Positions 10,578-60,591 are shown, numbered from the stretch's first letter. The stretch is 63,955 bases of DNA from a virus (IMGVR_UViG_3300048011_000824:1-63955); one strand, 5' to 3'. Numbers and translations are program-made. Notes: generated by a model not told the origin, from the letters alone.

Positions 10578-11494
10578 GCAAATTTAGAGTATTGGATCAC
10601 GATATTATTTACTTGAGTTATGACGAACCTAATGCTGAAGAAAATTATGCAGACTTGTGTAGTAAAATTCCTTGGGCAAAACGTGTACACGGTGTAAAAG
10701 GATCTGATGCTGCACACAAAGCCTGTGCAGAGCTAAGTGAAACAGATCGCTTTATTACTGTCGACGGCGACAATATTATTCGCAAAGAGTTTCTAGCAAA
10801 AGAATTTGATTTAGAAGAACACAAAGAATTAAAAAATTGTGTCATTAGCTGGACAGCCGAAAACAACATCAATGGACTCATGTATGGCAACGGCGGAATC
10901 AAATGCTGGCCAAAAGAGTATGTGCTCAACATGCGCACACACGAAAATGCAGATCCAAACAACCCGCATGCACAAGTAGATTTCTGTTGGGATATTGAAT
11001 ACATTCAAATGAACAGTTGTTACAGTCTTATTATGAATAATTCTACTCCGCAACAAGCATGGCGTGCTGGGTTCCGCGAAGGTGTTAAAATGGCACTGGA
11101 TAGAGGCCTACGAGTTAGCAAAGAAGACTTTCACAAAAATCACTGGAAGAATTTACATCGTTTGTATATCTGGCTTATGGTAGGCGCCGATGTACAAAAC
11201 GGCGATTGGGCCATATTAGGAGCAAGGGCAGGACTATATATGACAATGTGTACAGAATGGGACTTTGTTAATGTACGTGATTTTGAATATTTAAATAATT
11301 TATGGTCTACTTCCTTTGCAGGCATTGAAGACATCGAATACGAAACAGGTATGTATGGCATTAAACTTATTAATGAGTTAGAAATACCAATTGCCGAAAC
11401 TCCATTTGGCGCCCAACAAAGTAAATTCTTTAAAACAGTGTATCAAAATCCCAGCAGAAATCCCAAACAACAATTCATAGACAAGGAAGTTTAA
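10574..11494 (+). CDS. Glycosyltransferase-like protein (EPNAEEN family)
   Basis: 306 residues. DIIYLSYDEPNAEENY, KRVHGVKGSDAAH and RFITVDGDNII give the start of a GT-A fold with a DGD motif around residue 57. NGLMYGNGGIKCWPK follows. A paralogue sharing all these motifs lies at 43038-44072. The family is common in marine phages and usually annotated as glycosyltransferase or hypothetical. It is followed with a 1-nt overlap by the first radical SAM gene, so a GT and an rSAM enzyme are made from the same message. Confidence 0.6.
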   Translation: MSKFRVLDHDIIYLSYDEPNAEENYADLCSKIPWAKRVHGVKGSDAAHKACAELSETDRFITVDGDNIIRKEFLAKEFDLEEHKELKNCVISWTAENNINGLMYGNGGIKCWPKEYVLNMRTHENADPNNPHAQVDFCWDIEYIQMNSCYSLIMNNSTPQQAWRAGFREGVKMALDRGLRVSKEDFHKNHWKNLHRLYIWLMVGADVQNGDWAILGARAGLYMTMCTEWDFVNVRDFEYLNNLWSTSFAGIEDIEYETGMYGIKLINELEIPIAETPFGAQQSKFFKTVYQNPSRNPKQQFIDKEV

Positions 11495-12876
11495 TGTCGC
11501 ATAATACCGATAATCTCAAAGCGATTAACGAAGTAACTACGAGACATTTTTCTCCTACATTTTGCTTTGCTAAATGGTATCACACAACGATCTATTTACA
11601 AACAGGTGAGACACATAGTTGTTATCACCCTGCTCCTCATGCTATTGACGTAGATGAGCTACTAACCAATCCTAGCGCATTACACAACACCAAACACAAA
11701 AAACAAGAGCGCAAAGAGATGTTGGAAGGCAAGCAGTGTGTAGGCTGTAACTATTGTTGGAACATTGAAAACATGGGCGACGACTATATCAGTGATCGCC
11801 ATATTCGCAGCGGCAGCATTTACAACGAAGAACGTCTCAACGAAGTCAAACTTAAACCCTGGGACTTTAATGTTAATCCTGAATACATTGAAATTTCGTT
11901 TGGTAACGAATGTAACTTCCGTTGTGGATATTGTCATCCAAAAGCCAGCAGTCGTTATCACAACGAAATCAAACAACACGGGCCGTATACAAATGTTAAA
12001 AATCACCGTTGTGACATTGACTGGTTTCGTGTGTATGAAGAAGATACCAATCCGTATGTTCGTGCATGGTGGAAGTGGTGGCCCGAAGTTAGCAAGACAT
12101 TAAACATTTTGCGTGTCACAGGAGGTGAGCCTACAATCCAAAAAAGCACGTACAGACTGTTTGACGAACTTGAAAAAGATCCTAAGCCACAACTTGAACT
12201 CAACGTAAACAGCAATCTCGGAGGCAAAGAGCGTCAGTTGGAAAAGTTCACTGATGGCGTTAATAGTTTGCTAAGTCAAGATAAGATCAAACAGTTTAAA
12301 CTGTTTACAAGTGTTGACACCTGGGGACATCGTGCTGAATATATTCGCGACGGTTTGGACATTGAAGTGTTTGAACGTAACTTGGATTATTTCATGCGTA
12401 ATACCACAGCGCAAGTTACATTTATGATTACATTTAGCTTGTTTAGTGTAACAACATTCAATACATTGTTGGAAAAAATTCTCGAATGGAGAGAAAAGTA
12501 CAACGATGTAAACAGCGGACGTTGGCAACGTATTCACTTTGATACGCCCTATCTCAAAGAGCCGTTGCAGTATGACATTAATATTCTTCCCAAAGAACAA
12601 TACATGCCTTACATGGAAAGTCACTTGAAATTTATCAAAGACAATATCCAAGAAGGCAGTAAGCAACACTTTAATGAGCTGGAATACGAAAAGTTTAGAC
12701 GTGTTGTTGATTATATGAAATCAACTGAATATGCACCAGAAAAAATTGCAGAAGGACGCAAAGATTTTTGGAACTTTTTCCACGAACAAGACAGAAGACG
12801 TAATACAAATTTTCAAGAAGCATTTCCTGAAATGTCAGATTTTTTTGAATTGTGTAATAATGCCAGTAGTAGTTGA
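11494..12876 (+). CDS. Radical SAM protein, class A (N-terminal Cys domain)
   Basis: 460 residues. The rSAM [4Fe-4S] motif CNFRCGYC is at residues 140-147 and GGEP at 210-213. Before the core is a Cys-rich region (C24, C43, C82, C85, C88) that could ligate an auxiliary cluster, as in twitch/SPASM rSAM enzymes but placed N-terminally. It is the most divergent class A member: it lacks the PWxH signature after C24 and has a CVGCNYC block. The C-terminus FQEAFPEMSDFF matches the FPE tail of other class A members. It would generate a 5'-deoxyadenosyl radical; the substrate is unknown. The next gene starts inside its end. Confidence 0.82.
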   Translation: MSHNTDNLKAINEVTTRHFSPTFCFAKWYHTTIYLQTGETHSCYHPAPHAIDVDELLTNPSALHNTKHKKQERKEMLEGKQCVGCNYCWNIENMGDDYISDRHIRSGSIYNEERLNEVKLKPWDFNVNPEYIEISFGNECNFRCGYCHPKASSRYHNEIKQHGPYTNVKNHRCDIDWFRVYEEDTNPYVRAWWKWWPEVSKTLNILRVTGGEPTIQKSTYRLFDELEKDPKPQLELNVNSNLGGKERQLEKFTDGVNSLLSQDKIKQFKLFTSVDTWGHRAEYIRDGLDIEVFERNLDYFMRNTTAQVTFMITFSLFSVTTFNTLLEKILEWREKYNDVNSGRWQRIHFDTPYLKEPLQYDINILPKEQYMPYMESHLKFIKDNIQEGSKQHFNELEYEKFRRVVDYMKSTEYAPEKIAEGRKDFWNFFHEQDRRRNTNFQEAFPEMSDFFELCNNASSS

Positions 12877-13282
12877 TCTATCAAAAGAGTTTGATTTAAA
12901 AGATTTCTTAAAAGAACTCGAAGTCAGCAAAGACATCGAAGTAATCAACGGCGAGCCATTTTCAAGTTCTATTTTTAATACAGTACTTTCTGTTATTTCG
13001 AGACGAGTAGATCGCGAAAGTATTAAACTAAAATTCAGCACACAGAAATTAATGATTTCGATAATGGGTGCATTTAAACTTAGACGTATCTGCGGTGTTG
13101 ATATGACAATACACACAGATAAAATTGATGATGTGTTCATGGACAATTTTCGTATATTGTTCAAATGGAACAACAACTTTGAAAACATTAGAATAATTGT
13201 TTCAGACAAAAATCTAATAAGTATTGCAGAAGAAGAATTTAAAAAATACAAACAAAAAGTTGTAATATCTTATGAAGAATGA
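12860..13282 (+). CDS. Unknown protein between two radical SAM genes
   Basis: 140 residues, start taken at the ATG 17 nt before the upstream stop. It has an alternating alpha/beta pattern (IKLKFSTQKLMISIMGAF, FENIRIIVSDKNLISIAEE) that could be a small Rossmann-like or STAS-like fold, but no motif is diagnostic and it has almost no Cys. It overlaps rSAM genes on both sides (17 and 11 nt), so it is probably an accessory factor made with them. It could be a partner or chaperone for the rSAM enzymes; this is inference from position only. Confidence 0.45.
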   Translation: MPVVVDLSKEFDLKDFLKELEVSKDIEVINGEPFSSSIFNTVLSVISRRVDRESIKLKFSTQKLMISIMGAFKLRRICGVDMTIHTDKIDDVFMDNFRILFKWNNNFENIRIIVSDKNLISIAEEEFKKYKQKVVISYEE

Positions 13283-14492
13283 TCATCTAAATAATAGTAA
13301 AACTTTTTGTATGTTTCCTTGGATGCATATGAATGTAACTCCTAAGGGCAACATATATCCTTGCTGTAGCAGTGACTATGTTGAGCCGTTTGCAAACACC
13401 AAAGACAGCACACTAGCACAAGCGTTCAACAACGATAAAATGCGACAGTTGCGACTCGACATGCTTGCGGGCAGAAAAAACGAAGCGTGTACGTTTTGTT
13501 ACAAGCATGAAGAAAGTTCGCCCCACAGTTTTAGAAAATACAGCATAGAACATTTTAGTCATTTGTATGACGATCTTGTGCCTAATACAAATTTGGACGG
13601 CAGTGTTGACAAATTCAACATGGCGTATTTTGATGTAAGATTCAGCAACATTTGCAATTACAAATGCAGAACTTGCGGAGGAGAATTCAGCAGTCAGTGG
13701 GCACAAGAAGAAAAACAACACGACAATAGAGAAAGTAATTTTCGTGTAATACAACATGCCGACAGCACTGGAAAGTTATTACAGGAAATATTAAATCAGA
13801 TTCCTCATATGGAACTGGCTTACTTTGCCGGAGGCGAACCTCTTATCACAGACGAACATTACACAATACTTACAGAAATGATTTCCAGTGGCGCCTGCAA
13901 AGATATCACATTACGCTACAACACAAACATGAGCAACTTTAAATATAAAAAGTTTGATATCATTGACATGTGGAGCAATTTTAAACGTGTAGAAGTTAGT
14001 GCAAGTATTGATCATTATGGGCCACGTGCAGAATATATTAGACACGGCACTGATTGGAATACTGTGTACAATAATTTAAAACAAATTAGAGATATTGACT
14101 TTATTGATTATCAGTTTAATTGTGTACTCAGTAATTTAAATTATGCAACACTTGGCGATTTTTTCAAATATATGATCAACAATGATTTGTTACGCAAGCA
14201 CGATTATATAAGTGTGTATCATCTGTTAAATCCAAGTTTTTTCAGTGCACAATCTCTGCCACAGCACATCAAAGATGCTGGTACAGAAAAGTTGCAGAAC
14301 GTAGTAGATCAAATCAAGGATGAATTTTGGTGTGCACAGCACATAGAGAACGCAATTAAGTTTGCAAATCAACATCACACTTGGCAAGAAAACAAGCAAG
14401 AGTTTATACATAATATAAACAGGAGAGACAAATTCCGCAATGAAAGTTTCGCACAATCTCTTCCGGAATTAAAAGAAATGTTAAATGGATAA
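13272..14492 (+). CDS. Radical SAM protein, class A
   Basis: 406 residues. The N-terminal Cys domain has the class signature TFCMFPWMHMNVTPKG with C13, a CC pair at 31-32 and CTFC at 73-76, enough ligands for an auxiliary Fe-S cluster. The rSAM motif CNYKCRTC is at 128-135 and GGEP at 188-191. Conserved class A text follows (RYNTNMSNF, EVSASIDHYG, AEYIRHGTDW). The C-terminus has the FAQSLPELKEML tail. The next protein has the same architecture and overlaps it by 8 nt, so the two arose by tandem duplication. The family is known in marine phages as twitch-domain rSAM proteins; the reaction is unknown. Confidence 0.86.
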   Translation: MKNDHLNNSKTFCMFPWMHMNVTPKGNIYPCCSSDYVEPFANTKDSTLAQAFNNDKMRQLRLDMLAGRKNEACTFCYKHEESSPHSFRKYSIEHFSHLYDDLVPNTNLDGSVDKFNMAYFDVRFSNICNYKCRTCGGEFSSQWAQEEKQHDNRESNFRVIQHADSTGKLLQEILNQIPHMELAYFAGGEPLITDEHYTILTEMISSGACKDITLRYNTNMSNFKYKKFDIIDMWSNFKRVEVSASIDHYGPRAEYIRHGTDWNTVYNNLKQIRDIDFIDYQFNCVLSNLNYATLGDFFKYMINNDLLRKHDYISVYHLLNPSFFSAQSLPQHIKDAGTEKLQNVVDQIKDEFWCAQHIENAIKFANQHHTWQENKQEFIHNINRRDKFRNESFAQSLPELKEMLNG

Positions 14493-15759
14493 AGAATATC
14501 ATCTAAAGCAAAACTCTGCTTTTTGCATACTGCCTTGGATACACATGCACGCCTGGCCAAACGGAAAAGCATTGCCTTGCTGTATTGCAGACAGTGATCA
14601 GCCATTTGGCGATCTCAAGACTGACAGTATAGAAGATGTCTGGAACAGCGAACAATACAAGAAATTACGTGTTGCTATGCTCAATGGCGAAAAGTTAGAT
14701 TGCTGCAAACGTTGCTATGAACTTGAGGACAGTACATGGACGTGGACGTTGCGTAAAAACAGCAACGAATGGTTTGGCAACAAACATTTTGATCTTGTAA
14801 ACAACACAACCGAAGATGGTAGTCTTACTGAAATGCGCATGGCATATATGGATATTAGATTCAGCAATATATGCAACATGAAGTGTCGTAGTTGTGGCCC
14901 TGAGCTTAGTAGTTTACATGCACAGGAACATGGAGAATTATACGGCAAACACGAAGTTGCAAAAATGCTGAAAAACAACGGCAGTACAGTTGTTAACATT
15001 GCCAAAGAAAACAACTACTGGGAGAACCTACAACAATACTTGCCAGATGTAGAAGAAGTATACTGGGCAGGCGGCGAGCCACTTATTACAAACGAACACT
15101 ACAAAATACTGGATCACTGGATTGACATTGGCAAAACTGATGTACGTTTGCGATACACCACCAACTTCAGCAACATGCGATACAAGAGCAAAAGCATATA
15201 CAGTTATTGGGAACAGTTTGGCGATGTACAAGTTAGTGCAAGTCTTGATGCAAATGCCGCTCGGGCAGAGTTTATGCGCACCGGCACTGACTGGCAGCAA
15301 ACAGAGCGTAATCGTATTGAAATGATAGAGCGTGTGCCGCATGTGCACTTTGAAATTACTCCGACTATAAGTTTGTACAATGCATGGAACTTTCCAGACT
15401 TTCATATGGATTGGGTCGAACGTGGTTTAGTAGACATTGAAAAATGCAGGCTCAACATGCTAACCGGTCCAGACTTTATGCGTATTGATTACATTCCAGA
15501 AGAGTACAAGCGTGAACTACGTGCCAAGTATATTGATTATAAAAAATGGGCATACGAAAAATGCAACGGCGACACTGACAAGATTCGAGAAGTATTAGGA
15601 CATATTGATAGTGTAATACAGTTTATGAATATCGGTTCTTACAATCAACAAAAACTTAGACAGTTCTTTGACAATAATCATAGGTTAGATGTGCATCGCA
15701 AAGAAGATTTTTGGGCAGTATTTCCTGAGTTAGGATGGTTACGTGAACACATTAACTAA
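14485..15759 (+). CDS. Radical SAM protein, class A
   Basis: 424 residues. The N-terminal domain carries FCILPWIHMHAWPNG (C14), CC at 32-33 and CCKRC at 73-77. The rSAM core has CNMKCRSC at 130-137 and GGEP at 196-199, followed by RYTTNFSNMRYKSKS and QVSASLDANAARAEF. The C-terminal tail is FWAVFPELGWLREH. It is a close paralogue of the preceding gene: the same blocks occur in the same order with similar spacing. The next gene starts within its last codons. Two adjacent copies suggest a heterodimer or two related modification steps. Confidence 0.86.
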   Translation: MDKEYHLKQNSAFCILPWIHMHAWPNGKALPCCIADSDQPFGDLKTDSIEDVWNSEQYKKLRVAMLNGEKLDCCKRCYELEDSTWTWTLRKNSNEWFGNKHFDLVNNTTEDGSLTEMRMAYMDIRFSNICNMKCRSCGPELSSLHAQEHGELYGKHEVAKMLKNNGSTVVNIAKENNYWENLQQYLPDVEEVYWAGGEPLITNEHYKILDHWIDIGKTDVRLRYTTNFSNMRYKSKSIYSYWEQFGDVQVSASLDANAARAEFMRTGTDWQQTERNRIEMIERVPHVHFEITPTISLYNAWNFPDFHMDWVERGLVDIEKCRLNMLTGPDFMRIDYIPEEYKRELRAKYIDYKKWAYEKCNGDTDKIREVLGHIDSVIQFMNIGSYNQQKLRQFFDNNHRLDVHRKEDFWAVFPELGWLREHIN

Positions 15760-16702
15760 AATTACTCCTATGGCAGAACCGTATGCATGCCTCACATGGC
15801 AAGTGAACAATTTCTGTAATTTTCAATGTAGCTATTGCAATCCTGGCAACTGGGCAGGCGACAATCGCAACAATGGCGCATTAGAGCGTTACAAAGAAAA
15901 CACAATGCATATATTTGATACATACAAGCAACGTGGATACAAGCATTTTAAAGTTTTCTTTAGCGGCGGAGAGCCAACACACTGGGAAAACTTTATACCT
16001 TTGGTGACTTATCTCAAAGAACAAATACCCAATATTACTGTTGCAGTAAACACAAATCTATCACGTCCTTTAAAGTATTGGCAAGAACATCATTATTTGT
16101 TTGATGATATTGTAGCCAGCTTTCATGTAGAGTTTGCCAAGAAAGACAGATACATTGAAAATGCTGTTTTTTTATGCGACAAAGTAGATTATCTATGCAC
16201 AAAGATGTTGATGCATGACGAAAGGTTTTGGGAAGTTGTAGAATTTGGAGAACGTGTGCGCAAGGAAGTTCCTAATTACAATTTAGAATGGACCCCGTTG
16301 TTTGATGAAATGAGTGTAAACGCAGGACCGTGGAATTATACAGATCCTGTAAAACAAAACTTTTTAGAAAACTCGCAGTTTGAAACTGTAATGCGCATAC
16401 CCAAACCTTACAAGGACAGCAAAGCAGTTAGTGTTGCACATTACGATACACACAGCGAGCCAGTTAACAGCAACAAGATTATTTCAGATAGACAGAACTT
16501 TTTTACAGGCTGGAAATGCTATGTGGATGATGCACTTTTTATAAATCCACGAGGAGAAATTTCAAGTGCCAGTTGCGGTGTTGGAAACAATCATGGAAAT
16601 ATATTAGATAACAACTTGACATTTGACTTAAAGCCTGTTATTTGTAGTAAGCAGCATTGTCATTGCGGCACTGATATTATCATTCCAAAAGAGCAAGTAT
16701 GA
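15743..16702 (+). CDS. Radical SAM protein, class B (C-terminal SPASM-like)
   Basis: 319 residues from a GTG that has AGGA 7 nt upstream; an ATG at 15770, just after the previous stop, is an alternative start. CNFQCSYC is at 25-32 and GGEP at 75-78. The last 70 residues hold a SPASM-like set of Cys: GWKC, then NPRGEISSASCG, then ICSKQHCHCGTD, suited to one auxiliary Fe-S cluster. MLMHDERFWE in the core resembles the MMHxxYWxE segment of classes B and C. It overlaps the next gene by 4 nt. It probably acts with the class A enzymes upstream. Confidence 0.82.
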   Translation: MNTLTKITPMAEPYACLTWQVNNFCNFQCSYCNPGNWAGDNRNNGALERYKENTMHIFDTYKQRGYKHFKVFFSGGEPTHWENFIPLVTYLKEQIPNITVAVNTNLSRPLKYWQEHHYLFDDIVASFHVEFAKKDRYIENAVFLCDKVDYLCTKMLMHDERFWEVVEFGERVRKEVPNYNLEWTPLFDEMSVNAGPWNYTDPVKQNFLENSQFETVMRIPKPYKDSKAVSVAHYDTHSEPVNSNKIISDRQNFFTGWKCYVDDALFINPRGEISSASCGVGNNHGNILDNNLTFDLKPVICSKQHCHCGTDIIIPKEQV

Positions 16703-19344: not shown

Positions 19345-20139
19345 ATGCACGGCTTGCATTTTAATAAAAACTATCCATTGTTAACTGATCAAGAAGTTGT
19401 TGGCTCTAAACAAAAATTTTACAGCACTGATGATAGCAAAACATTCAAGTATAATTGTAAAAAATTCCAAGGCAAGGATTGGCAATGGCGTAATGCTGAT
19501 ATATCGTACTCGTTTAATTCGCATGGATATAGAACAAAAGAATTTGGTGATGTTAACAAAGACTTCGTGTTAGGCTTTGGGTGTAGTTATACAGAAGGAG
19601 TAGGCTTGCCCAAGGAGGATATATGGCTCCATCAGTATTGTGAAAAATTAGGAATTGATTATGTTAATTTAGGCAAAGCCAGCACTGGAATGGACATTCA
19701 ATATTATAATACATTGTTGTGGAGAAACAGCAAATTGCCATTGCCTAAATTAGTAGTATGTCAGTGGCCGCAAAAGTTTCGAAAAAGTTTTGGATTTCAA
19801 GAAAGAGATTCAATAAGACTTTCTGACATGAGCGAAACTCCTACCAAAGACGGGCAATGGTGGGGAAAGCGTTATATCATGGACGAAGGCGAAATGAACA
19901 TAAACACATTAGGATGGTTTCTAGCAATGAACAATACGTGGAAAAGTCTTGGAGTGCCTGTGTTGAACTTTAGTTGGGAGCACGATATTACCGAAGACTT
20001 GAAATTCACAGAATATGATATACATTTTGTAGATCCTGCCGGGGTAGGTAGTATGCAAGCTCGTGATTGTATGCACGATGGCCCAGAGTTTCACAAACTC
20101 ACAAGTGATCAGCTATTAAGTATTCCGCACAAGATCTAA
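19345..20139 (+). CDS. SGNH/GDSL-family esterase-like protein
   Basis: 264 residues. FVLGFGCSYTEGVG (Ser81 probable nucleophile) is the block I motif, YVNLGKASTGMD a second block, and CMHDGPEFH near the C-terminus the Asp/His pair. The first about 70 residues (FSTD-type region with SYSFNSHGYRTKEFG) form an extra N-terminal segment seen in many marine-phage SGNH proteins. AAGGAA precedes the ATG. It is a single plus-strand gene between minus-strand genes and overlaps the amidinotransferase tail-to-tail by 24 bp. It probably hydrolyses or transfers an acyl group on a glycan; the substrate is not shown. Confidence 0.72.
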   Translation: MHGLHFNKNYPLLTDQEVVGSKQKFYSTDDSKTFKYNCKKFQGKDWQWRNADISYSFNSHGYRTKEFGDVNKDFVLGFGCSYTEGVGLPKEDIWLHQYCEKLGIDYVNLGKASTGMDIQYYNTLLWRNSKLPLPKLVVCQWPQKFRKSFGFQERDSIRLSDMSETPTKDGQWWGKRYIMDEGEMNINTLGWFLAMNNTWKSLGVPVLNFSWEHDITEDLKFTEYDIHFVDPAGVGSMQARDCMHDGPEFHKLTSDQLLSIPHKI

Positions 20140-42993: not shown

Positions 42994-43002
42994 ATTTTCT
43001 CC

Positions 43003-43031: not shown

Positions 43032-43037
43032 AACAAC

Positions 43038-50042: not shown

Positions 50043-51431
50043 ATGACAGATCAAAATAAAACATCGCCTGCATTTTGTCCGTTGCCATGGATGAGTGTAA
50101 ATGTTAGAAATAACGGAGATTTAAGAGTTTGTTGTAATGCCAATGTAGGCTTTGACAAAGGTCTAGTCAAAAAAGACGACGGAACAATTTACAACTTAGG
50201 TGCCGACGGAATAAACGAATTTCGCAACGCAAAGATAATGAAAGAAATTAGAAAGTCCATGCTCGTTGGAGAATTTCATCCAAGTTGTATTCGTTGTAAA
50301 AGAGAGCACGATGCAGGTATGGAAAGTCGTGCCGACAACGAAAAAATAATTTGGAACCATATTATCACAGAAGAACAGGCAAGAGATCTTACCGAAGAAG
50401 ATGGCACAATTGATATTGAAGCAAATCCAATAAAATATACCGATTTGCGTTTTGGAAATTTATGTAATTTAAAATGTCGCATGTGCGGTCCTACAGATAG
50501 CAATCAGTGGTATGATGATCAAGCAAAAGTTTGGAATACAACCAGCTACAACGATGCCGAAAAGGTTATTCCTTTGGTTAAAAATGCAAAAGGAAAATTC
50601 ACAGCCGATACAAATATATATGATTGGTATAATAATCCACTGTTTTGGAAAGATTTAGAGGATGCTATTCCTAGTCTTGAGAGATTATATATTGTAGGCG
50701 GAGAACCTTTGCTTATTGATCAACATTATGAATTTTTACAAAAATGCATTGATATGGGTAGAGCAAATAAAATTATTGTTGAATACAATAGTAACATTAC
50801 TAACATTCCTGAACGTGCATGGAATATTTGGAAACACTTCAGACGTATACAAGTTGGTATGAGTGTAGACGCAGTTGGTCCGATCAACGATTATATACGT
50901 AATCCTAGTAAATGGTGGAAGATTGCAGAAAATATGCACAAATTAGATCAAGCAGAAGGCAATTTTAAAGTTTGGTGGGCTGCAACTATTCAAGCATACA
51001 ACATGTATAACTTGCCCGAAATGATGCGTTGGAAGATTGCACAAAATTTCAAGAGGATCAACAAAAAAGTTCATTGGAAACCGGTAATCAGTCCTCATCC
51101 TTTGCACAACCCAGACTTTTTAAATGTTAAAATATTTCCCAAGGAAAGCAAGCAATGGATTGAAAAATATTTTGAAGAACAAAAAGTCGAAGCAAAAGAA
51201 GAAATTTTTACATATGATTTCCTAAGCGAAGAAGACAAAAAATCAAATTACAAGTTTTTCTGTAAAATATTAGATCAATATGTATCATATATGAATGCTG
51301 ATGATTATAGTCATAGATTGGAAAAGTTCTGGCATTACACTAATAGTTTAGATAAGTTACGCAATGAAAATCTCAAAGATGTTTGCCCAACTACTTGGAA
51401 ATTATTGCTAGGCGATCAATACAACAATTAA
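50043..51431 (+). CDS. Radical SAM protein, class A
   Basis: 462 residues. N-terminal Cys domain: FCPLPWMSVNVRNNG (C12), CC at 30-31 and CIRC at 82-85. CNLKCRMC is at 141-148 and GGEP at 219-222. EYNSNITNIPERAWNIWKHF and VGMSVDAVGPINDYIRNP follow. The C-terminus NLKDVCPTTWKLL is a variant of the FPE tail. It is the last gene of the plus-strand run starting at 43038 and overlaps the opposite class A gene by 4 bp at their stops. Two class A proteins thus end against each other. Confidence 0.85.
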   Translation: MTDQNKTSPAFCPLPWMSVNVRNNGDLRVCCNANVGFDKGLVKKDDGTIYNLGADGINEFRNAKIMKEIRKSMLVGEFHPSCIRCKREHDAGMESRADNEKIIWNHIITEEQARDLTEEDGTIDIEANPIKYTDLRFGNLCNLKCRMCGPTDSNQWYDDQAKVWNTTSYNDAEKVIPLVKNAKGKFTADTNIYDWYNNPLFWKDLEDAIPSLERLYIVGGEPLLIDQHYEFLQKCIDMGRANKIIVEYNSNITNIPERAWNIWKHFRRIQVGMSVDAVGPINDYIRNPSKWWKIAENMHKLDQAEGNFKVWWAATIQAYNMYNLPEMMRWKIAQNFKRINKKVHWKPVISPHPLHNPDFLNVKIFPKESKQWIEKYFEEQKVEAKEEIFTYDFLSEEDKKSNYKFFCKILDQYVSYMNADDYSHRLEKFWHYTNSLDKLRNENLKDVCPTTWKLLLGDQYNN

Positions 51432-52606
51432 ATATCTTTAAAAATATCATTAAATTGAGGATAAGATTTAAAAAAGTCTTGTCCTCTATATTTGTCGGTG
51501 CCTTCTAAATATTGTTTTAAACTGGGCAACAAATGACTATCGTCTTTGCTATTCATAAAGTTCTTAATGTATTCCAAGCCATTGTTTATTTTTTCTACAT
51601 CGCATTTGTTTTGATATTCATTAAATTTTTCTGTAATGCGCTTTTTGATGTGTGAAGGTAAAACTGTAACACATAAATTTTCTGGAAATGTCAAGTGTGT
51701 AGGATTCATTCCTTTCCATGGACCTGGGTCATTGTCATACCACCATTGCATACTTTCGGGCATATTCCAAACATTTAGTAAACTTATTGTGCTGCGTAAA
51801 AACACTTGAAATCCGTGACTTTGCTTTAATTCTAAGAAACGTTTAGTGACAGCTTCAGTTGTTTCATATTTTGCAGGCCAGCGTATGTATTCACTTTCTG
51901 CAGGATCGGCACTATCAAAACTTAGTGCAAATTCTACTTTTTTAAATTTGCTCCATTTGTCTATCCAGCTTTGTTTTGGCATAATAGTGCAATTGGTACT
52001 GTAATTTAGTAGTATATCACTGCAATCTCGCTCTGCTAACATTTTGTCAACTAGCACCCATTGATCCTTTGTCATTAGCGGTTCGCCACCTGTGAACTTT
52101 ATATGCACTAGATCGTTGATAAACGGATATATGTTGGCAATGTCGCTTTTGCTTTTTTCAATCTTGTTGGATGTCTTACCATATATTGCTTGTTCTTCTT
52201 TAAACCATTTCCATGCATAACGACTATCACACATGCGACATGCAAGATTGCAGTCATTGCTGATAGCAAGTTCGATCCAACGTATGGTAGGATTATTTAA
52301 ATCAACAAGTTCGTCTATGGGCAAATCTGTATTATCGTGATATCTTTCTCGTAAACTTTTTTTGCCCGATTCTTCTTCTTGATAGCAGCGTATGCAGCCT
52401 GGAACTTGTTCGCCGTTGATCATTTTATCACGAATATCATTCATCCAGTCTCCGTAAAAAACTTCACTGAGAGACTTTTCATTAAGATTGTTTTCATTAG
52501 GTCTGTGCTTTTCTGCAAAGCGGCAGCAAGGTTTTACTCTACCAGTAGGATCAACAAACTGATGATCCCACGCCATACTACAAAATGTTTTACTAGGTAT
52601 TTTCAT
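51428..52606 (-). CDS. Radical SAM protein, class A
   Basis: 392 residues. Cys domain: TFCSMAWDHQFVDPTG (C9, with AW for PW), CC at 27-28 and CIRC at 71-74. CNLACRMC is at 119-126 and GGEP at 173-176. FALSFDSADPAESEYIRWP corresponds to the substrate-side block. The C-terminal tail is FFKSYPQFNDIFKD. It follows the class A gene at 52613 after 6 nt on the same strand, so these are probably a pair made from one transcript with the B12-type rSAM protein and the QueC-like enzyme. Confidence 0.85.
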   Translation of the reverse strand: MKIPSKTFCSMAWDHQFVDPTGRVKPCCRFAEKHRPNENNLNEKSLSEVFYGDWMNDIRDKMINGEQVPGCIRCYQEEESGKKSLRERYHDNTDLPIDELVDLNNPTIRWIELAISNDCNLACRMCDSRYAWKWFKEEQAIYGKTSNKIEKSKSDIANIYPFINDLVHIKFTGGEPLMTKDQWVLVDKMLAERDCSDILLNYSTNCTIMPKQSWIDKWSKFKKVEFALSFDSADPAESEYIRWPAKYETTEAVTKRFLELKQSHGFQVFLRSTISLLNVWNMPESMQWWYDNDPGPWKGMNPTHLTFPENLCVTVLPSHIKKRITEKFNEYQNKCDVEKINNGLEYIKNFMNSKDDSHLLPSLKQYLEGTDKYRGQDFFKSYPQFNDIFKDI

Positions 52607-52612: not shown

Positions 52613-53830
52613 TTATCTTTTATATCTATCAAATATACTTTTTAAATGAGGAAACATTTCCAAAGTATTTTGTTTTCTTATTTTATCCATCAACATTGCA
52701 TACTCAACAAACTCGTTTATTAATTGCTGATCATTTAACTCGTCTTTCAACAAGTATTTTATTATTTGGTCTAGTGCTATTTTAATTTTATCACTGCAAA
52801 GAGGTTTTAATTTTTTTAATTTTTCTACTTGTAGTTGTCTGTCTGCTAAAGGTACTAAACTTAAATTGCTTCTTTTAGGTGCAATTGCAGGAAACCAGTG
52901 CATTGAAAAATTTGGATAGTTTTCTAAAACCCATAACAACAAACGATCGAGGGTCAAACAATTATAAGGAGTAACGGTTACGCATACTAAGTTATCGGTA
53001 GTGGTTAAACGAGTATCTACTATTTTTAAATTTTCTTCTATAACTTTCCATTGTGAAGGCCATCTTATAAACTCGTTTTCTTTGCCTAATCCATCAATGC
53101 TTATTTGAAAGTTTACCTCTTTAAAACCATTAAGTATGTTAACAATTCTATCATTCATAAACGACATATTAGTATGCACTAGTAATTTTATATTATTGTT
53201 TGGTAATTTTTCAATAATGTTTTCTAAAAGCAGTAAACATTTTTCGTCATAAAATGGCTCTCCGCCATGTAATTCAATCTGTTCAATGTGTTCAATATGA
53301 TTCCAAATTTGATCAATAAAACTAGTATCTGATTTTCTATTCAATATTGATGTATATATAACCGAATCTTTGTCCGACTGAGACAAGGAGTCAAAATTTT
53401 TCATATACTGAGATTCGATAACAGTGCTATTTTGAGGATGGCACATTAGACATGCTAAATTACATTTTGAAGATAATCTAATTTCCCATTGAACTGGACT
53501 AGTTGGAACCTCCCCATTGTTTTCTTTAGCATAGTCAATTATATGTTGATATTTTTTAAGAAACCGACGATTTGCAGAATTTCGTTTGCTTGTTCCATTG
53601 TTTTTTTCGATATGATTGCATATATCGCAATACGGTTGTGTTTTGTTGTCTAGCATATCTTTTCTAAACTTTTTTAGATTGCTGTGATTCCAAAATTCAT
53701 CGATACTAACATTGTTTAGATTAGGAAGTGCTGGCATGTGTTCATGATAACCTTCGCTGCAAATTTTAAAATCGCCAGTAGGTCTTGTACTAAGATTTAT
53801 AAATGGAAGAACACATACGTTTTTATTCAT
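52613..53830 (-). CDS. Radical SAM protein, class A, reduced Cys domain
   Basis: 405 residues. The N-terminus VCVLPFINLSTRPTGDFKIC shows the class A form (C6, PF for PW), but the CC pair is a single C24, and the later pair is CDIC at 68-71. Hence one of the five usual N-terminal Cys is missing. CNLACLMC is at 123-130 and GGEP (LHGGEPFYDE) at 189-192. FQISIDGLGKENEFIRWP and the tail LEMFPHLKSIFD are intact. Its ATG overlaps the B12-type gene's stop. The auxiliary cluster may be altered or have a different ligand. Confidence 0.84.
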   Translation of the reverse strand: MNKNVCVLPFINLSTRPTGDFKICSEGYHEHMPALPNLNNVSIDEFWNHSNLKKFRKDMLDNKTQPYCDICNHIEKNNGTSKRNSANRRFLKKYQHIIDYAKENNGEVPTSPVQWEIRLSSKCNLACLMCHPQNSTVIESQYMKNFDSLSQSDKDSVIYTSILNRKSDTSFIDQIWNHIEHIEQIELHGGEPFYDEKCLLLLENIIEKLPNNNIKLLVHTNMSFMNDRIVNILNGFKEVNFQISIDGLGKENEFIRWPSQWKVIEENLKIVDTRLTTTDNLVCVTVTPYNCLTLDRLLLWVLENYPNFSMHWFPAIAPKRSNLSLVPLADRQLQVEKLKKLKPLCSDKIKIALDQIIKYLLKDELNDQQLINEFVEYAMLMDKIRKQNTLEMFPHLKSIFDRYKR

Positions 53831-55341
53831 TATACGCTCGGCCCCATTGACCCACCTTCGTTGTAATGATCGTATATATGTTGCACTTGTTGTTTTTGAT
53901 TTGTAATTTTTTCTAGTTCTGCTAGCAAATGATCTGTTGCCTTTTCTACTATAGGATAATCAAGTTCTTTTAATTTGTCTTTTAGCCGTAGCCATCTACG
54001 TATTCTAACTTCTCTAGTGTTGTCTTTGTATACCCAGTGTTTGTTTTGATCCCAAGTTATTCCCATTTCTTTTTGTTTCCAGTATACTGGAGATCCGGGA
54101 ACAATATCCATAGTCGGGCCTAGTGCAACACTTCTAACAAGTTTTTTCTCATTAATCCAATTGTATTTGTCCATCATGTCTAACGTTTTTTGAAATTCTT
54201 TTTCGTCTTCGGTAGGATAGCCAACCATCATAAGCCATGCCATATCTATTCCATACTTTGCACACATACGAAAAGTAAAGTCCATTGCCTCGTCGTTGAA
54301 CATCTTTTTCATGTCATCTCTAACTTTTTCGCTGCCGCTTTCAATGCCAATACTAACGAATCTTAAACCTGCTTCTGCCATTAGTGCATATACTTCTTCG
54401 CCCATTTGGTGTTCTGGTCTAGCAATAAATTGTCCTTGCCAAATTACAGGTTTCATCATGCCTTTGTCTCGATAGTCAATTAATGTAGTGCAAATATCTT
54501 TTAATTGTTTAACACTGCCATTTAATAAACTATCAGTAAAAAGAAATCTTTTACTTCCGTATGCTTGATTTTGTATTTGCATCTCTTTAGCAATACTTGC
54601 TCCGCTACGGTATCTAAACTTTGGCCAAACACTTTGTATATCACAAAAACTACATTTACGAACACATCCCCTTGATCCAGTAATATAAACAAAATCGGTG
54701 CCCATTTTGTTTTCGTCTTTGATGCGTGGGTCGCTCCATGTAGTAGGATATTTGTCTATATGAAAATCGCTGTAGTCGGGAATAGGTATAGTATCTAAGT
54801 CGTCAATTTGTTCAGGTGGATTGCCATTTACACCGGGTACATCAAAATCTCCTTTGAGTATACTTACAATAGCATTTTCACCTTCGCCGACAACGTATGC
54901 ATCTGCTAGTCCTTTTTTGTAAACATTTGGACCTGTGTGTTCTGCAAAGGGTCCTCCAACAACAATCTTTATGTGAGGAAAGTGTTCTCTTATCAATTCG
55001 CACATGCGTATAGTAATCCATTTGCTGCGTTGACTAAAGATGGTCATTCCTATCCACTTTGGATTTTTGTTTCTTATAGTCTCAATCCATCGTAAACTAT
55101 GTTCATGAATTACTTCGTTCCAAAATTCTTTGAATTTGTCTTCGTACCTAAATGTAAGATCTGTATCAAACCACACATTGCCATATGTTTCAGTGTCTAC
55201 ATTTAACCAAAGATCTAGATTTAAATCGTAACAAAACGCACTGAATCCTTGTGCTTCGACTGTTGCTTTTAAAATTGCCGGAGCAGTGATAGGAGCCCTA
55301 AGTTCTAATCTTGGTAATGTTAAAAATACAATATCAACCAT
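53830..55341 (-). CDS. Radical SAM protein with B12-binding-type N-terminus (class E)
   Basis: 503 residues. The N-terminal about 165 residues have the beta-alpha pattern of cobalamin-binding Rossmann domains (VFLTLPRLELRAPITAP, IGMTIFSQRSKWITIRMCEL, KIVVGGPFAEHTG, AYVVGEGENAI). The DxHxxG motif of base-off B12 proteins is absent, which is common in rSAM class B. The rSAM motif CVRKCSFC is at 226-233 after VYITGSRG; IGIESGSEKVRDDMKK and MVGYPTEDEKEF follow. Class B enzymes methylate or rearrange unactivated carbons. It overlaps the QueC-like gene by 8 nt and the class A gene by 1 nt. Confidence 0.86.
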   Translation of the reverse strand: MVDIVFLTLPRLELRAPITAPAILKATVEAQGFSAFCYDLNLDLWLNVDTETYGNVWFDTDLTFRYEDKFKEFWNEVIHEHSLRWIETIRNKNPKWIGMTIFSQRSKWITIRMCELIREHFPHIKIVVGGPFAEHTGPNVYKKGLADAYVVGEGENAIVSILKGDFDVPGVNGNPPEQIDDLDTIPIPDYSDFHIDKYPTTWSDPRIKDENKMGTDFVYITGSRGCVRKCSFCDIQSVWPKFRYRSGASIAKEMQIQNQAYGSKRFLFTDSLLNGSVKQLKDICTTLIDYRDKGMMKPVIWQGQFIARPEHQMGEEVYALMAEAGLRFVSIGIESGSEKVRDDMKKMFNDEAMDFTFRMCAKYGIDMAWLMMVGYPTEDEKEFQKTLDMMDKYNWINEKKLVRSVALGPTMDIVPGSPVYWKQKEMGITWDQNKHWVYKDNTREVRIRRWLRLKDKLKELDYPIVEKATDHLLAELEKITNQKQQVQHIYDHYNEGGSMGPSV

Positions 55342-56020
55342 TGACTTGTTTTAACGCCCATTCTCTTTCTTCGCACCACCAGCACTTGCCACATTCTTTG
55401 GTAAAATTTTCTGTAATTTTTATATCGCCTTCGCACGAACGTGTAAGTGGAAGCAAACTGTTTATTAAGTTATTCTTTTTATATTGATCAACGATTAATC
55501 TTTTATCTACCATTGCCCATGGCACAGTTTCAACAGGTGCTTTGTAAATATTTTTTTCAGTAGGATTGTTTCTTTCCAGCTGCGGATTTTGATCATTGAA
55601 TTTGTTCATTACTTCTTTCGAAGGATTTTTTGTTTTTCCACTAAACAAATGATCTATAACATTATTTACAAACAAAAAACTCATTATATGATTAAAATGC
55701 TTTTCTTTTTTGTTGTCGCTTTCGCATTCGTCTTCGGGAACATTAAAGTAATAATGCTTTCCGAACGTTTCGGCACATTTGAGATCAGATGCAATAAAGT
55801 TTACAACACGTTTGGCATGATCGTAACTCCACGGACGAATAGCAAAACGTGCGCTAATAGGATGTATGATCACATCTAATTGTTGTTCTTTGATTTGTTT
55901 AGCAAGCAGATAGCATAGTATGGAGCTGTCTGCACCGCCCGACATTGAAACACCAATTGCTTTTACTCCGTCTGGAATTTTTAAATTTGCTGTTTGTCCA
56001 AAACTATCAGTAATTTGCAT
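55334..56020 (-). CDS. QueC-like PP-loop ATP pyrophosphatase
   Basis: 228 residues. AIGVSMSGGADSSILCYLL is the PP-loop; TRSCEGDI and CGKCWWCEEREWA the zinc-site region. They align with 35532 over both ends, with a different middle. It is first in a minus-strand operon with a class E and two class A rSAM genes. The start has AGGA 11 nt upstream and an AATAAATA word further up. As for the other copy, no other preQ0 gene is present, so a dedicated amidation or nitrile-type reaction on another substrate is more likely than queuosine synthesis. Confidence 0.75.
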   Translation of the reverse strand: MQITDSFGQTANLKIPDGVKAIGVSMSGGADSSILCYLLAKQIKEQQLDVIIHPISARFAIRPWSYDHAKRVVNFIASDLKCAETFGKHYYFNVPEDECESDNKKEKHFNHIMSFLFVNNVIDHLFSGKTKNPSKEVMNKFNDQNPQLERNNPTEKNIYKAPVETVPWAMVDKRLIVDQYKKNNLINSLLPLTRSCEGDIKITENFTKECGKCWWCEEREWALKQVNG

Positions 56021-56071: not shown

Positions 56072-57181
56072 GTGTATTTAACAAATGAAACAATAGAAGA
56101 GCTGCATGTAGAAACAACAAACAAGTGCAATGCTGCATGTCCTATGTGTGATAGAAATATTTTTGGTGGCATTGATAAACCAGGAAAAGGATTTTCTGAA
56201 TGGAGTCTTGAAGATATTGACTCGGTTTTTACTGGGCTACCTAATTTAAAATTTGTGTATTTCTGTGGAACACACGGCGATCCCCTAGCATCAAAGCATA
56301 TTTTTGAAGCAATACACGCTGTTAAAAAACTAGGTGCAAGAATAGAAATGTTTACCAACGGTAGTTTAAAAACACAAAACTGGTGGCACAAACTTATAAG
56401 CATACTAGATGAACGTGACAGAATAACTTTTGGAGTTGATGGACTGGAAACAAATCACTTGTATAGACAAAACACTGATATCAATAAAATTGTATCTCAT
56501 ATGAAAATTGCAACTGCTAGCAAAGTAAAAGTGAGATGGGATTTTCTAGCTTTTAAACACAACGAGCACGAATTAGAAAATTGCAAAAAGTTTGCAAAAG
56601 AAATTGGAGTAACAAATTTTAGAGTTAGAAGAACAGCAAGATTTGATCTATATAGTCCTTGGCCTGTTATAAATCAAAACGATAAACTTACTCATTATTT
56701 AGAAATTCCTAGTGATCCTGAGTTAATACATCCTAGTCTCAAAGATTTACAAAGTTTGCAAAACAAAAAAATTAATATGACAAATACGTCTGATCGAGAA
56801 ATAATTATACAAAGAATGAAAAATAGAAAAACTAATTATATGTTAGATTCAGATCCGATTGTTGATAATAACAACTGGAAAATCAATTGCATGTACAAAG
56901 AAGCTAAAAAAATATATGTAAATAGCAGATTGGATGTGTTTCCGTGCAGTTATATAAGCGATTCAAATGAAACATTTAAAGCACTAACTCCTCAAGAATT
57001 AAAATATCCAGAAGGCGAGTTAAATTTAAAAACCAAAACATGGAAAGAAGTTTTAGATCATAAATTTTATGCAAAGGATTTGGTTGAGTCGTTTACAAAC
57101 AACAATATTATACCTAGATGTATAAGAACGTGCGGCGTTGTTGAAAGAATTTATCAACAAAATTTGAGGATAGAAGAATGA
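56072..57181 (+). CDS. Radical SAM protein, class D (tandem copy 1)
   Basis: 369 residues. The start is a GTG chosen because it gives MYLTNETIEELHVETTNKCN, aligning with the ATG start of copy 2 (57747); a TTG at 56057 is less likely. CNAACPMC is at 19-26, then DRNIFGGIDKPGKG. CGTHGDP at about 65-71 stands for GGEP. ITFGVDGLETNHLYRQNTD and RWDFLAFKHNEHE follow. The C-terminal Cys are INCMYKEAKK, PCSY and CIRTCGV; copy 2 has PCCY at the middle position. It shares a 72-bp identical stretch with copy 2. Confidence 0.86.
   Translation: MYLTNETIEELHVETTNKCNAACPMCDRNIFGGIDKPGKGFSEWSLEDIDSVFTGLPNLKFVYFCGTHGDPLASKHIFEAIHAVKKLGARIEMFTNGSLKTQNWWHKLISILDERDRITFGVDGLETNHLYRQNTDINKIVSHMKIATASKVKVRWDFLAFKHNEHELENCKKFAKEIGVTNFRVRRTARFDLYSPWPVINQNDKLTHYLEIPSDPELIHPSLKDLQSLQNKKINMTNTSDREIIIQRMKNRKTNYMLDSDPIVDNNNWKINCMYKEAKKIYVNSRLDVFPCSYISDSNETFKALTPQELKYPEGELNLKTKTWKEVLDHKFYAKDLVESFTNNNIIPRCIRTCGVVERIYQQNLRIEE
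56086..56157 (+). repeat. 72-bp direct repeat, copy 1
   Basis: Identical to 57761-57832, offset 1675 bp. It encodes the N-terminal stretch around the CxxxCxxC motif of two class D rSAM genes. Identity over 72 bp with divergent flanks indicates recent duplication or gene conversion. Confidence 0.95.
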
Positions 57182-57756
57182 TTGTAGCAGGAGACTCAAC
57201 ATATAACGTAAGTAAAGAAATATTTAAACTTTGTCCTGATGCAGTTTTTTGCAGCAGAAAGACTGGGTATAATCTTTTAACAGACAACGGTAAAGAACAA
57301 TTTGCTCAAGAGTGTTTGAATCATAATCATATTTTAATTGTAAGTGCATTAGATGATTTTCATATAATTAAATTATATGATATGGTTTATAAAATGTGTG
57401 TTGAACACGATCACAAACCTCACATAATAACCATAGGCAGCACAATAGATAGATTGGGAAACGGCAACGGTAGATTATACTCTACAGAGAAAAAAGCATT
57501 GAGAGAACATACTATAAATTTAAACTTGCATAGTTCTAAAGTAAATGGTCCAAAAACTACACTTTTGAGTTTTGGCATGTTGGAAAATATGAAGAAAAAA
57601 TTTCCTGATAGACAATGTATTAGTTTAGAATTAGTTGGCAAATACATCAAGTGGATATTAGAACAGCCTAGTCACATTAATATAAATGAAATAAACATAG
57701 ATCCTATGCAAGACATGCATTGGCAAGAAAATGAAATAGACTATAAATGTATATAA
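57178..57756 (+). CDS. Short SDR-like oxidoreductase between two rSAM genes
   Basis: 192 residues, shorter than the usual 250. The N-terminus MIVAGDSTYNVSKEIFK has a Rossmann-like strand with a changed Gly motif. HILIVSALDDF is strand 4, IITIGSTIDR gives the catalytic Ser region and YSTEKKAL the Tyr-x3-Lys, followed by TLLSFGMLENMKKK. It overlaps the rSAM copies on both sides (4 and 10 nt). It could oxidise or reduce the product of the two class D enzymes. The divergent Gly motif leaves cofactor binding uncertain. Confidence 0.62.
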   Translation: MIVAGDSTYNVSKEIFKLCPDAVFCSRKTGYNLLTDNGKEQFAQECLNHNHILIVSALDDFHIIKLYDMVYKMCVEHDHKPHIITIGSTIDRLGNGNGRLYSTEKKALREHTINLNLHSSKVNGPKTTLLSFGMLENMKKKFPDRQCISLELVGKYIKWILEQPSHININEINIDPMQDMHWQENEIDYKCI

Positions 57757-58820
57757 CACCTGAAACAATAGAAGAGCTGCATGTAGAAACAACAAACAAG
57801 TGCAATGCTGCATGTCCTATGTGTGATAGAAACATACATGGAGGACTTGATCGCCCGGGTAGAGGACTTTCTGAATGGACATTAGAAGACATTGATTCAG
57901 TTTTTACTGGACTACCCAATTTAAAATTTGTGTATTTTTGTGGCACACACGGAGAACCGTTGTCTTCTAAATACATCTTTGAAGCAATACAGGCTGCAAA
58001 AAATGTAGGCGCTAAAATAGAAATGTTTACCAACGGCAGTTTAAAAACCGTAGAGTGGTGGAATCGATTGGTGAACATTCTTGATAAAAATGACAGAATA
58101 ACTTTTGGAGTTGATGGAATAGAAACAAATCATTTGTATAGACAAAATACAAACATTGACAGAATATTAGAAAGAATGCAAATATGCTGTGATGGAGAAG
58201 TTAATGTTAGATGGGACTTTTTAGTGTTTAAGCACAATGAACATGAAATGGAAGTGTGCAAACAAAAAGCCCGTCAAATGGGCGTAAGTCATTTTAGATT
58301 TAGACGCACATCGAGATTTGATGTTTTTGATCCTTTTCCAGTGCTTGATAAAGATCTAAATGTTACACATTATCTCGAATCACCAGATAACAAAGAATGG
58401 CAACATCCTGGCACTGCTAAAATGAAAGATATTCTTGTAGAGATTAAACAAATCGGTGACCGCGATATAAATATGACAGGATTTGAATACACAGAAAGAT
58501 CGTTGCCCGAGAACTGGAAAATAAATTGTTTATACCAAGAATCAAAAAAGATTTATGTCAATAATAGATTAGAAGTGTTTCCGTGTTGCTACCTCAGTGA
58601 CGAATTTGAAACATGGAAAACATTGGCAAAAGGGCAGTTGTCTTATCCATTCGGTGAATTGACTTTGAGAGATAAAACATGGAAAGAAGTTTTAGATCAC
58701 AAATATTTTGCAGAAGATTTGGTAAAGTCTTGGCAGCAACAAAATGTGCATCCACGGTGTATACGAACTTGCGGAAAGGTTAGAAGAGAAGCCGAACAAA
58801 ATGTAAACGTTGATATCTAA
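57747..58820 (+). CDS. Radical SAM protein, class D (tandem copy 2)
   Basis: 357 residues. CNAACPMC is at 19-26, then DRNIHGGLDRPGRG; CGTHGEP at about 65-71. ITFGVDGIETNHLYRQNTN and RWDFLVFKHNEHE match copy 1. The C-terminal Cys are INCLYQESKK, PCCYLSD and CIRTCGK. It differs from copy 1 mainly in the 190-250 region. It ends one base before the opposite-strand nitroreductase gene. Together with the SDR between the copies it looks like a unit that duplicated around one oxidoreductase. Confidence 0.86.
   Translation: MYITPETIEELHVETTNKCNAACPMCDRNIHGGLDRPGRGLSEWTLEDIDSVFTGLPNLKFVYFCGTHGEPLSSKYIFEAIQAAKNVGAKIEMFTNGSLKTVEWWNRLVNILDKNDRITFGVDGIETNHLYRQNTNIDRILERMQICCDGEVNVRWDFLVFKHNEHEMEVCKQKARQMGVSHFRFRRTSRFDVFDPFPVLDKDLNVTHYLESPDNKEWQHPGTAKMKDILVEIKQIGDRDINMTGFEYTERSLPENWKINCLYQESKKIYVNNRLEVFPCCYLSDEFETWKTLAKGQLSYPFGELTLRDKTWKEVLDHKYFAEDLVKSWQQQNVHPRCIRTCGKVRREAEQNVNVDI
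57761..57832 (+). repeat. 72-bp direct repeat, copy 2
   Basis: Second copy of the 72-bp exact repeat at 56086-56157, covering the same codons of the downstream rSAM gene. Confidence 0.95.
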
Positions 58821-59417: not shown

Positions 59418-59441
59418 TTTGTTCTCCTTAATATTATTTAG

Positions 59442-59469
59442 TTGACTTTTTTTACAAAGGCTATATAAT
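59442..59469 (+). promoter_or_regulatory. Sigma70-type promoter, leaderless position
   Basis: TTGACT at 59442-59447, a 16-bp spacer and TATAAT at 59464-59469. The ATG at 59476 follows 6 nt after the -10, so the message would be leaderless. The -35 lies in the divergent gap. Confidence 0.7.
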
Positions 59470-59475
59470 AGCAGT

Positions 59476-60591
59476 ATGAATGAAGATTTAAAATGGAGTA
59501 ATTATGACTTTACCAAGATACCGTTTGACGACATTGTTCAAGTCGGTCAACGTACTCTTCTTTATAGAGATATTTTTACTGTTAGTTGGTTACTTGGTAG
59601 GTTTTGCAATTATCGTTGCAGCTATTGTTGGCCTTATGCAAGATCCGACCGCAAAGACCACAGACCGACTGAACTCTGCTTACGAACAATAGATGAAATA
59701 AAGCGTCAGGCCCGTGATAACGGTTTTAACAGTTTTCACTTTAGCCTCAGTGGAGGCGAGCCTACTTTCCATCCTGGATACTTGGACATACTAAAACATC
59801 TAGCAAACGATGTAGACAACACCAACTATACTAGTGTGCATATGACATCAAACTGCTCACGCAATATGGCATGGTTTGAGCAATATGTAGAAGCAGTGAA
59901 GCCATTTCATCGCGCCAGCATTACAGCAAGTTTGCACACAGAACATTTAGATACCCCTGAAAAGATGCAGGACTTTGCAGACAAGCTGATCTTCTGCCAA
60001 GAGCATGATGTACAAGTAACTATCAACATGGTTATGGTACCAGACTGGTTTGAGCGTGATTGGGACAACGCATTGTTCTTTCATGAACAGGGTATAAACG
60101 TAACGCTGAAGCCTCAAAGCGACCCTACAGCCAGTCGAGTGGTAGATGGGTATACAGCAGACAACCTAAAACGCTTGCACAACGGTATGCCGCAACGTGC
60201 GTACACAGAACACAAGCGCAAATGGGCAGAACGACCTAAGCCTACATTTGAAATTCCTGCAGGAGTTGACGGGAAACTAGACACAAGTATTCCGTGGCAC
60301 ATGCAAGTAGAGTTTGAAGACAAAGACGGCAAAAAATGGTATATGGATCAAGCGGAGAGATTTAATGCATTTAACTTCAATAAATTCAAAGGCTGGAATT
60401 GCAATGCTGGTTATCAGGGCATTATTATTCGTGAGCCTGACGGCAGTGTTAAGCGAAGTTATAGTTGTCATGATGTACCTTTAGGAAACATTGAAACTGG
60501 GTTTAAACTGTTTGGTGCGCCAGCGCCTTGTATTACTGACAGTTGTGTGAGCAGCGCCGATAGCAAAATACCAAAGAGAAAAGAAATATGA
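59476..60591 (+). CDS. Radical SAM protein, class B (C-terminal SPASM-like)
   Basis: 371 residues. CNYRCSYC is at 44-51 and GGEP at 93-96 (FSLSGGEPTFHP). VTINMVMVPDWFERDW marks the class. An insertion of about 60 residues precedes the C-terminal part (RPKPTFEIPAGVDGK). The Cys set is GWNCNAGY, SYSCHDVPLGN and CITDSCVSSADSK. It is larger than other class B members (298-319 residues) and lacks their C-x-C pair. I recall similar proteins in T4-like marine phages. It overlaps the SDR-like gene downstream by 4 nt. Confidence 0.84.
   Translation: MNEDLKWSNYDFTKIPFDDIVQVGQRTLLYRDIFTVSWLLGRFCNYRCSYCWPYARSDRKDHRPTELCLRTIDEIKRQARDNGFNSFHFSLSGGEPTFHPGYLDILKHLANDVDNTNYTSVHMTSNCSRNMAWFEQYVEAVKPFHRASITASLHTEHLDTPEKMQDFADKLIFCQEHDVQVTINMVMVPDWFERDWDNALFFHEQGINVTLKPQSDPTASRVVDGYTADNLKRLHNGMPQRAYTEHKRKWAERPKPTFEIPAGVDGKLDTSIPWHMQVEFEDKDGKKWYMDQAERFNAFNFNKFKGWNCNAGYQGIIIREPDGSVKRSYSCHDVPLGNIETGFKLFGAPAPCITDSCVSSADSKIPKRKEI

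Follow-up and report, generated by a model that had tools for sequence, protein, structure and literature searches.

An ordered island of radical SAM genes beside the tail fibres of an uncultured T4-like phage, with a possible role in glycan editing

The window analyzed here is the complete IMG/VR record IMGVR_UViG_3300048011_000824, a 63,955-bp stretch of DNA from an uncultured phage in which 65 genes were called (genes are named below by their start coordinate). Twenty-two of these genes encode radical S-adenosylmethionine (rSAM) enzymes and occupy 25.9 kb of a 49.1-kb island that adjoins tail-fibre genes. Judging from related phages, the island looks like an old, vertically kept pathway and not a recent duplication burst, and its genes likely form a multi-enzyme pathway. 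We give a probability of roughly 50% to the reading, based on enzyme families, that this pathway makes and radically edits a glycan containing an aminosugar or aminocyclitol, carried either by the host surface or by the virion. Clusters rich in rSAM genes are already known from T4-like marine phages; what is new is how densely the genes are packed and how well their order is conserved, along with the small core of genes, the presence of this core in Bdellovibrionota chromosomes, and a 74-aa companion protein. An uncultured phage group devotes ~26 kb to radical chemistry that is sensitive to oxygen, with the gene order maintained and the genes guarded by selection. The six-gene core is a small, expressible target for learning the product of these enzymes.

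Detection and evolution of the radical SAM island

The first-pass annotation had assigned the sequence to a phage and listed 22 rSAM genes by their CxxxCxxC motifs, and both claims held. The motif is present in exactly 22 of the 65 called genes, and all 22 proteins match the Pfam Radical_SAM model PF04055 with the CxxxCxxC site kept inside the domain (E = 7e-17 to 6e-4). Most of them exceeded the gathering score and the remainder aligned over the right stretch. A chance origin of the motifs was excluded, as shuffling each protein gave a mean of 0.18 and a maximum of 3 genes with the motif. A six-frame search of the window recovered 21 rSAM, and the annotated coordinates were correct save for minor start-codon choices (56057/56072, 35545/35689).

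The nine genes grouped as class A for their N-terminal cysteine domain all scored 290-427 bits against NCBIfam NF033640 (N_Twi_rSAM; cut-off 170 bits), a family whose name carries no stated function, and share four invariant N-terminal cysteines. This cut-off was passed neither by any gene of the other classes nor by any of 14 control genomes. Classes B and C have C-terminal SPASM-like cysteines in common and grade into one another, while in class D, which also carries C-terminal cysteines, CG[NT]xG[DE] mostly takes the place of the GGE found in the other classes. Because of the invariant N-terminal set in class A and the separate C-terminal set in classes B/C and D, nearly all 22 enzymes are likely to bind auxiliary Fe-S clusters. 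The single class E enzyme (53830) is a B12-binding rSAM that fell far below the cut-offs of the nearest families, PhpK and RiPP (ribosomally synthesized and post-translationally modified peptide) B12-rSAM methyltransferases (96 bits vs 600, 95.8 vs 281.85).

The ordered island recurs in many uncultured phages. Genes between 11.5 and 37 kb are co-linear, with few exceptions, in five relatives (G002, G008, G020, G035, and G016), and the 44-63 kb part differs between relatives. For the rSAM genes, the ratio of nonsynonymous to synonymous substitution rates (dN/dS) was ~0.04-0.13 where dS was estimable (G008 vs G035). Synonymous sites were often saturated between the window and G002 or G008, for which dN was 0.08-0.40 among the rSAM orthologues compared and 0.36-0.62 for fibre genes. 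The 11.5-37 kb part is under strong purifying selection. That a hypervariable region gathered unrelated cargo genes with no common pathway is therefore very unlikely: the variable 44-63 kb part would suit such an origin, as would the rSAM cassettes reported to be gained and lost in the host recognition cluster of pelagimyophages (PMC7029224), but the co-linearity and selection of the 11.5-37 kb part argue against it, as does a set of three rSAM genes that stays together in bacterial chromosomes (next section).

Recurring A-B-C order had been taken as a sign that the set was built by block duplication, and this proposal was not supported. Paralogues within the window are about 20-39% identical, and the one pair at 60% (56057/57747) is the only recent duplicate. 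In our trees, class A gene 26174 groups with 46292 and not with 34295, class B gene 27550 does not pair with 33411, and the two blocks do not mirror each other; on the trees and identities together we reject a recent A-B-C duplication. For most window genes the first tree neighbour is the gene at the corresponding position in another phage, which makes the majority of paralogues older than the divergence of these phages, although the trees were quick, with some long branches and support from the Shimodaira-Hasegawa-like approximate likelihood-ratio test only. The multi-step pathway proposed alongside block duplication remains likely, since conserved order and purifying selection fit it, but without the recent duplication. 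Two wide alignments (A1, A3) were too diverse to be used for the locus search.

The rSAM count proved ordinary for this phage group. Records reached through class A or D relatives hold 3-25 rSAM domains each (25 in 76.8 kb, 22 in 71.7 kb, 21 in 170 kb, 23 in 243 kb, and 20 in 342 kb), and 20 long records with a 59476 relative hold 1-22. Since the presence of a relative was the criterion for choosing these records, they speak for this group, not for phages in general. The density first described as unusual is thus refuted in part by its own test, although such counts are not ordinary in the five cultured phages counted, which had 0-6 rSAM each. Twelve rSAM genes have been published for the T4-like ocean genome TARA_ERS488813_N000010 (PMC5332604); the passages of that paper concerning them attribute the genes to Fe-S supply and describe neither the present core nor its bacterial counterpart. 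A literature search for rSAM arrays in jumbo phages or Bdellovibrio found nothing relevant. Such islands may be under-reported because a conservative ocean auxiliary-gene catalogue filtered out lipopolysaccharide (LPS)-type islands (PMC11360552).

A six-gene core shared with Bdellovibrionota

Homology searches identified a core, common to this phage and Bdellovibrionota chromosomes, of three rSAM genes (46292, 59476, and 45201), two predicted GT-A-fold genes (10574 and 42939), and a putative methyltransferase (44026), at about 41-67% identity between phage and bacteria. Gene 59476 has relatives at 207 IMG/VR loci (76-96% identity across the best-matching segment for the best 80 of the 207), and 22 of 369 genomes from the phylum Bdellovibrionota match it strongly. 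Around it, the 20 Bdellovibrionota loci that we fetched contained relatives of 46292 in 17 (47-63% identity), of 45201 in 15 (41-48%), and all three in 14; relatives of 44026 were found in nine, of 42939 in eight (39-49%), and of 10574 in six (37-49%). Additional family 2 glycosyltransferases are also present in these loci. One locus (L352) has relatives of 51428, 53830, 57747, and 47694 as well, at 48, 65, 47, and 55%, respectively. Two loci were taken as chromosomal because their contigs (936 kb and 1.62 Mb) exceed the length expected of a phage. One of the 20 (L338), a contig of a Bdellovibrionales metagenome-assembled genome (MAG) with homologues of the tail-fibre and rSAM genes of this phage, is probably a misbinned phage contig, and a Gammaproteobacteria MAG contig (MED685; L190/L208) with an 84% relative of 59476 is probably misbinned phage DNA. 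In the tree of 59476, phage and bacterial sequences form separate groups (support 88 and 90), which indicates that the exchange between phage and bacterium is old.

The small gene between 44026 and 45201 has a TTG start and encodes a 74-aa protein whose whole length is conserved in 51 other fetched loci, where its gene most often comes immediately behind a 44026-like one. The protein had no Pfam match and no homologue in the Bdellovibrionota loci searched. Searches of cultured phages by DNA, and with 59476 (50,697 records), 42939, and the 74-aa protein, gave no match, and those with 26174 and 45201 gave weak partial matches only. The 74-aa protein was the single recurrent open reading frame (ORF) of unassigned role in our small-ORF search next to the core. 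Its place in an operon with core genes raised the idea that it is the precursor or carrier of a secreted small molecule or RiPP, for which the halogenase, AMP-binding, nitroreductase-like, and B12-rSAM genes of the window would also speak. We consider this distinctly unlikely. A RiPP precursor would have a conserved leader and a variable core, and a RiPP is not favoured because the only recurrent small ORF beside the core is conserved along its entire length. In addition, the Bdellovibrionota loci searched did not yield the protein, and the halogenase and AMP-binding pair was found together in only G002 of six relatives compared.

Genomic setting and candidate product

In G002 (170,115 bp), the fibre-gene orthologues lie directly against a baseplate-type structural gene of 4,581 aa, after which come baseplate genes of the gp6, gp25, and gp5 types; a portal gene sits elsewhere in the record. 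The record is a fragment, as a capsid gene is cut at its end; its DNA polymerase is nearest those of Sinorhizobium phage Phosso and Agrobacterium phage Atu_ph07 (46-49%). With G002 as the guide, the island adjoins tail fibres and VrlC/baseplate genes, and we assign the window to a T4-like myophage's host-recognition cluster, directly downstream of a giant gene of baseplate type. The window ends within this cluster, whose other border in T4-like phages is the neck gene gp14. The pelagimyophage cluster is likewise a large island at VrlC/baseplate genes with LPS-type glycosyltransferases, tail fibres, and rSAM cassettes that vary between close relatives (PMC7029224). The present island differs in its 22 rSAM genes, a co-linear rSAM order in relatives, a core found also in Bdellovibrionota, and the affinity of the G002 DNA polymerase noted above. 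G002 additionally has GTP cyclohydrolase and QueE genes and a gene that is TGT/DpdA-like by eye, without a PHROG match (L145:11887-13440, L146:3934-5510), which together hint at 7-deazaguanine modification.

Of the readings considered, a carbohydrate-type product accounts for the largest share of the parts. This reading draws on the StrB1-like amidinotransferase, the sugar dehydratase and aminotransferase, the BtrN-like domain, the glycosyltransferase and methyltransferase folds, the position at tail-fibre genes as in pelagimyophages, the family 2 glycosyltransferases of the Bdellovibrionota loci, and the purifying selection on the rSAM genes. The amidinotransferase 20116 matches StrB1, an enzyme of aminocyclitol antibiotic synthesis, over its full length (residues 6-332 of 334) and is 78-94% identical in five relatives. 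By profile comparison, the N-terminal part of class A matches the auxiliary-cluster domain of the aminocyclitol dehydrogenase BtrN, although that domain is C-terminal in BtrN, and class D matches cytosylglucuronate decarboxylase, among others. Unlike the systems of BtrN and StrB1, no complete aminoglycoside pathway was recognized here. The AlphaFold model of 10574 had a confidence (pLDDT) of 88 and its top Foldseek matches were the glycosyltransferases TarP/SunS/RmlT/WrtF; that of 44026 had a pLDDT of 71 (~90 in the C-terminal domain, whose top matches were class I SAM methyltransferases). When the 10574 and 22530 families were searched against PDB sequences, neither gave a match.

From family resemblance, we propose that the sugar dehydratase, aminotransferase, and amidinotransferase would produce a guanidinylated aminosugar or aminocyclitol, that the rSAM enzymes would then carry out successive dehydrogenation, deoxygenation, epimerization, or methylation, and that the glycosyltransferases would place the product on the surface glycan of the infected cell or on tail-fibre proteins. 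Several observations count against a glycan. The Foldseek template-modelling (TM) scores of 10574 were low (0.3-0.4), a match by fold only. Class A and D profiles also match rSAM enzymes that act on peptides or lipids (SkfB, tetraether lipid synthase). No lipid carrier, flippase, or polymerase was recognized in the window; neither the halogenase and AMP-binding pair nor the beta-hydroxylases belong to the usual enzymes of glycan synthesis; and the rSAM set is kept while tail fibres diverge, unlike a simple serotype switch.

Alternatively, the rSAM enzymes could modify phage proteins post-translationally, most likely fibres or adhesins such as 41422-42993, to which the glycosyltransferases would also attach sugars. 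This fibre-like gene lies inside the island and is among the fastest evolving compared (33% aa identity, dN 0.62 vs G002 and G008), and fibres abut the island. Several related rSAM/SPASM families are peptide maturases, and the three Asp/Asn hydroxylase-like genes belong to a type that modifies proteins in other systems. We nevertheless find protein modification unlikely, as it leaves the amidinotransferase and sugar genes unexplained and as the Bdellovibrionota loci hold the core without fibre genes, save one viral-like contig. Extending the glycan reading, we suggest only tentatively that the core is an undescribed biosynthetic system of uncultured large phages and Bdellovibrionota that makes a new radically edited glycan, to which the phages may have added a dozen or more rSAM steps.

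Features of the window

Table 1. Positions, strands, and supporting evidence for features of the 63,955-bp window.
Feature	Position	Strand	Evidence
Tail-fibre/virion structural genes, seven ORFs, left border of island	3..8339	+	Phage_Collar; PHROG virion structural
Two putative glycosyltransferases (8317, 9152)	8317..10006	+	Mutually related, syntenic in relatives; function by eye
Core, predicted GT-A-fold glycosyltransferase 1	10574..11494	+	AlphaFold/Foldseek; Bdellovibrionota homologues
rSAM class A	11494..12876	+	PF04055 1.2e-6; NF033640 304 bits
rSAM class A	13272..14492	+	PF04055; N-terminal SPASM; NF033640 378 bits
rSAM class A	14485..15759	+	NF033640 377 bits
rSAM class B	15743..16702	+	PF04055 1.4e-9
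Amidinotransferase related to StrB1 (inosamine-phosphate amidinotransferase)	20116..21120	-	PDB 1bwd E=3.5e-51
Short DegT/LegC-type sugar aminotransferase	21929..22579	-	PF01041 1.9e-16; TIGR04181 5.7e-9
NDP-sugar dehydratase/epimerase	23597..24520	+	PF16363 3e-37; PF01370 4e-37
rSAM class A	26174..27553	+	PF04055 9e-13; NF033640 396 bits
rSAM class B	27550..28467	+	PF04055 9e-13
rSAM class C	28457..29491	+	PF04055 1.2e-8
rSAM class D	31359..32387	+	PF04055 1.6e-8
rSAM class C	32368..33456	-	PF04055 9e-15
rSAM class B	33411..34307	-	PF04055 5e-15
rSAM class A	34295..35545	-	PF04055 9e-11; NF033640 326 bits
PP-loop/QueC-like protein, paralogue of 55334	35532..36227	-	PF06508 0.003, weak; paralogy
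Tail-fibre-like repeat protein within island	41422..42993	-	Fibre-like by eye
Core, predicted GT-A-fold glycosyltransferase 2, C-terminal part of ORF 42939-44072	43380..44072	+	33% to 10574
Core, methyltransferase-like protein	44026..44997	+	AlphaFold and Foldseek
Conserved 74-aa protein, missed by first-pass annotation	44984..45208	+	Homologues in fetched loci
Core, rSAM class D	45201..46280	+	PF04055 9e-6
Core, rSAM class A	46292..47704	+	NF033640 427 bits
rSAM class D	47694..48758	+	PF04055 3e-6
rSAM class C	48755..50038	+	PF04055 7e-14
rSAM class A	50043..51431	+	NF033640 358 bits
rSAM class A	51428..52606	-	NF033640 309 bits
rSAM class A	52613..53830	-	NF033640 290 bits
rSAM class E, B12-binding and radical SAM	53830..55341	-	PF04055 7e-17; PF02310 4e-10; nearest NCBIfam PhpK/RiPP C-methyltransferase
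PP-loop/QueC-like protein	55334..56020	-	PF01171 6e-4, weak
rSAM class D, recent duplicate of 57747	56072..57181	+	PF04055 4e-10; 60% to 57747
rSAM class D	57747..58820	+	PF04055 1.6e-11
Core, rSAM class B, most conserved member	59476..60591	+	PF04055 3e-14

Other genes of the window are recorded here as minor observations. A 183-aa ORF at 12731-13282 (+) stands where G002, G008, and G035 hold a full class A gene and, with a weak 34% match over 85 aa, is possibly a class A remnant. The tryptophan-halogenase-like gene and the AMP-binding gene that follows it lie at 37672-40154 (-), and the three Asp/Asn beta-hydroxylase-like genes at 30574-31320, 37060-37716, and 61029-61613. A periplasmic solute-binding protein with an apparent signal peptide (61674-62756, +; SBP_bac_8, 8e-40) is also encoded in this phage and has an 89% match in one other IMG/VR locus.

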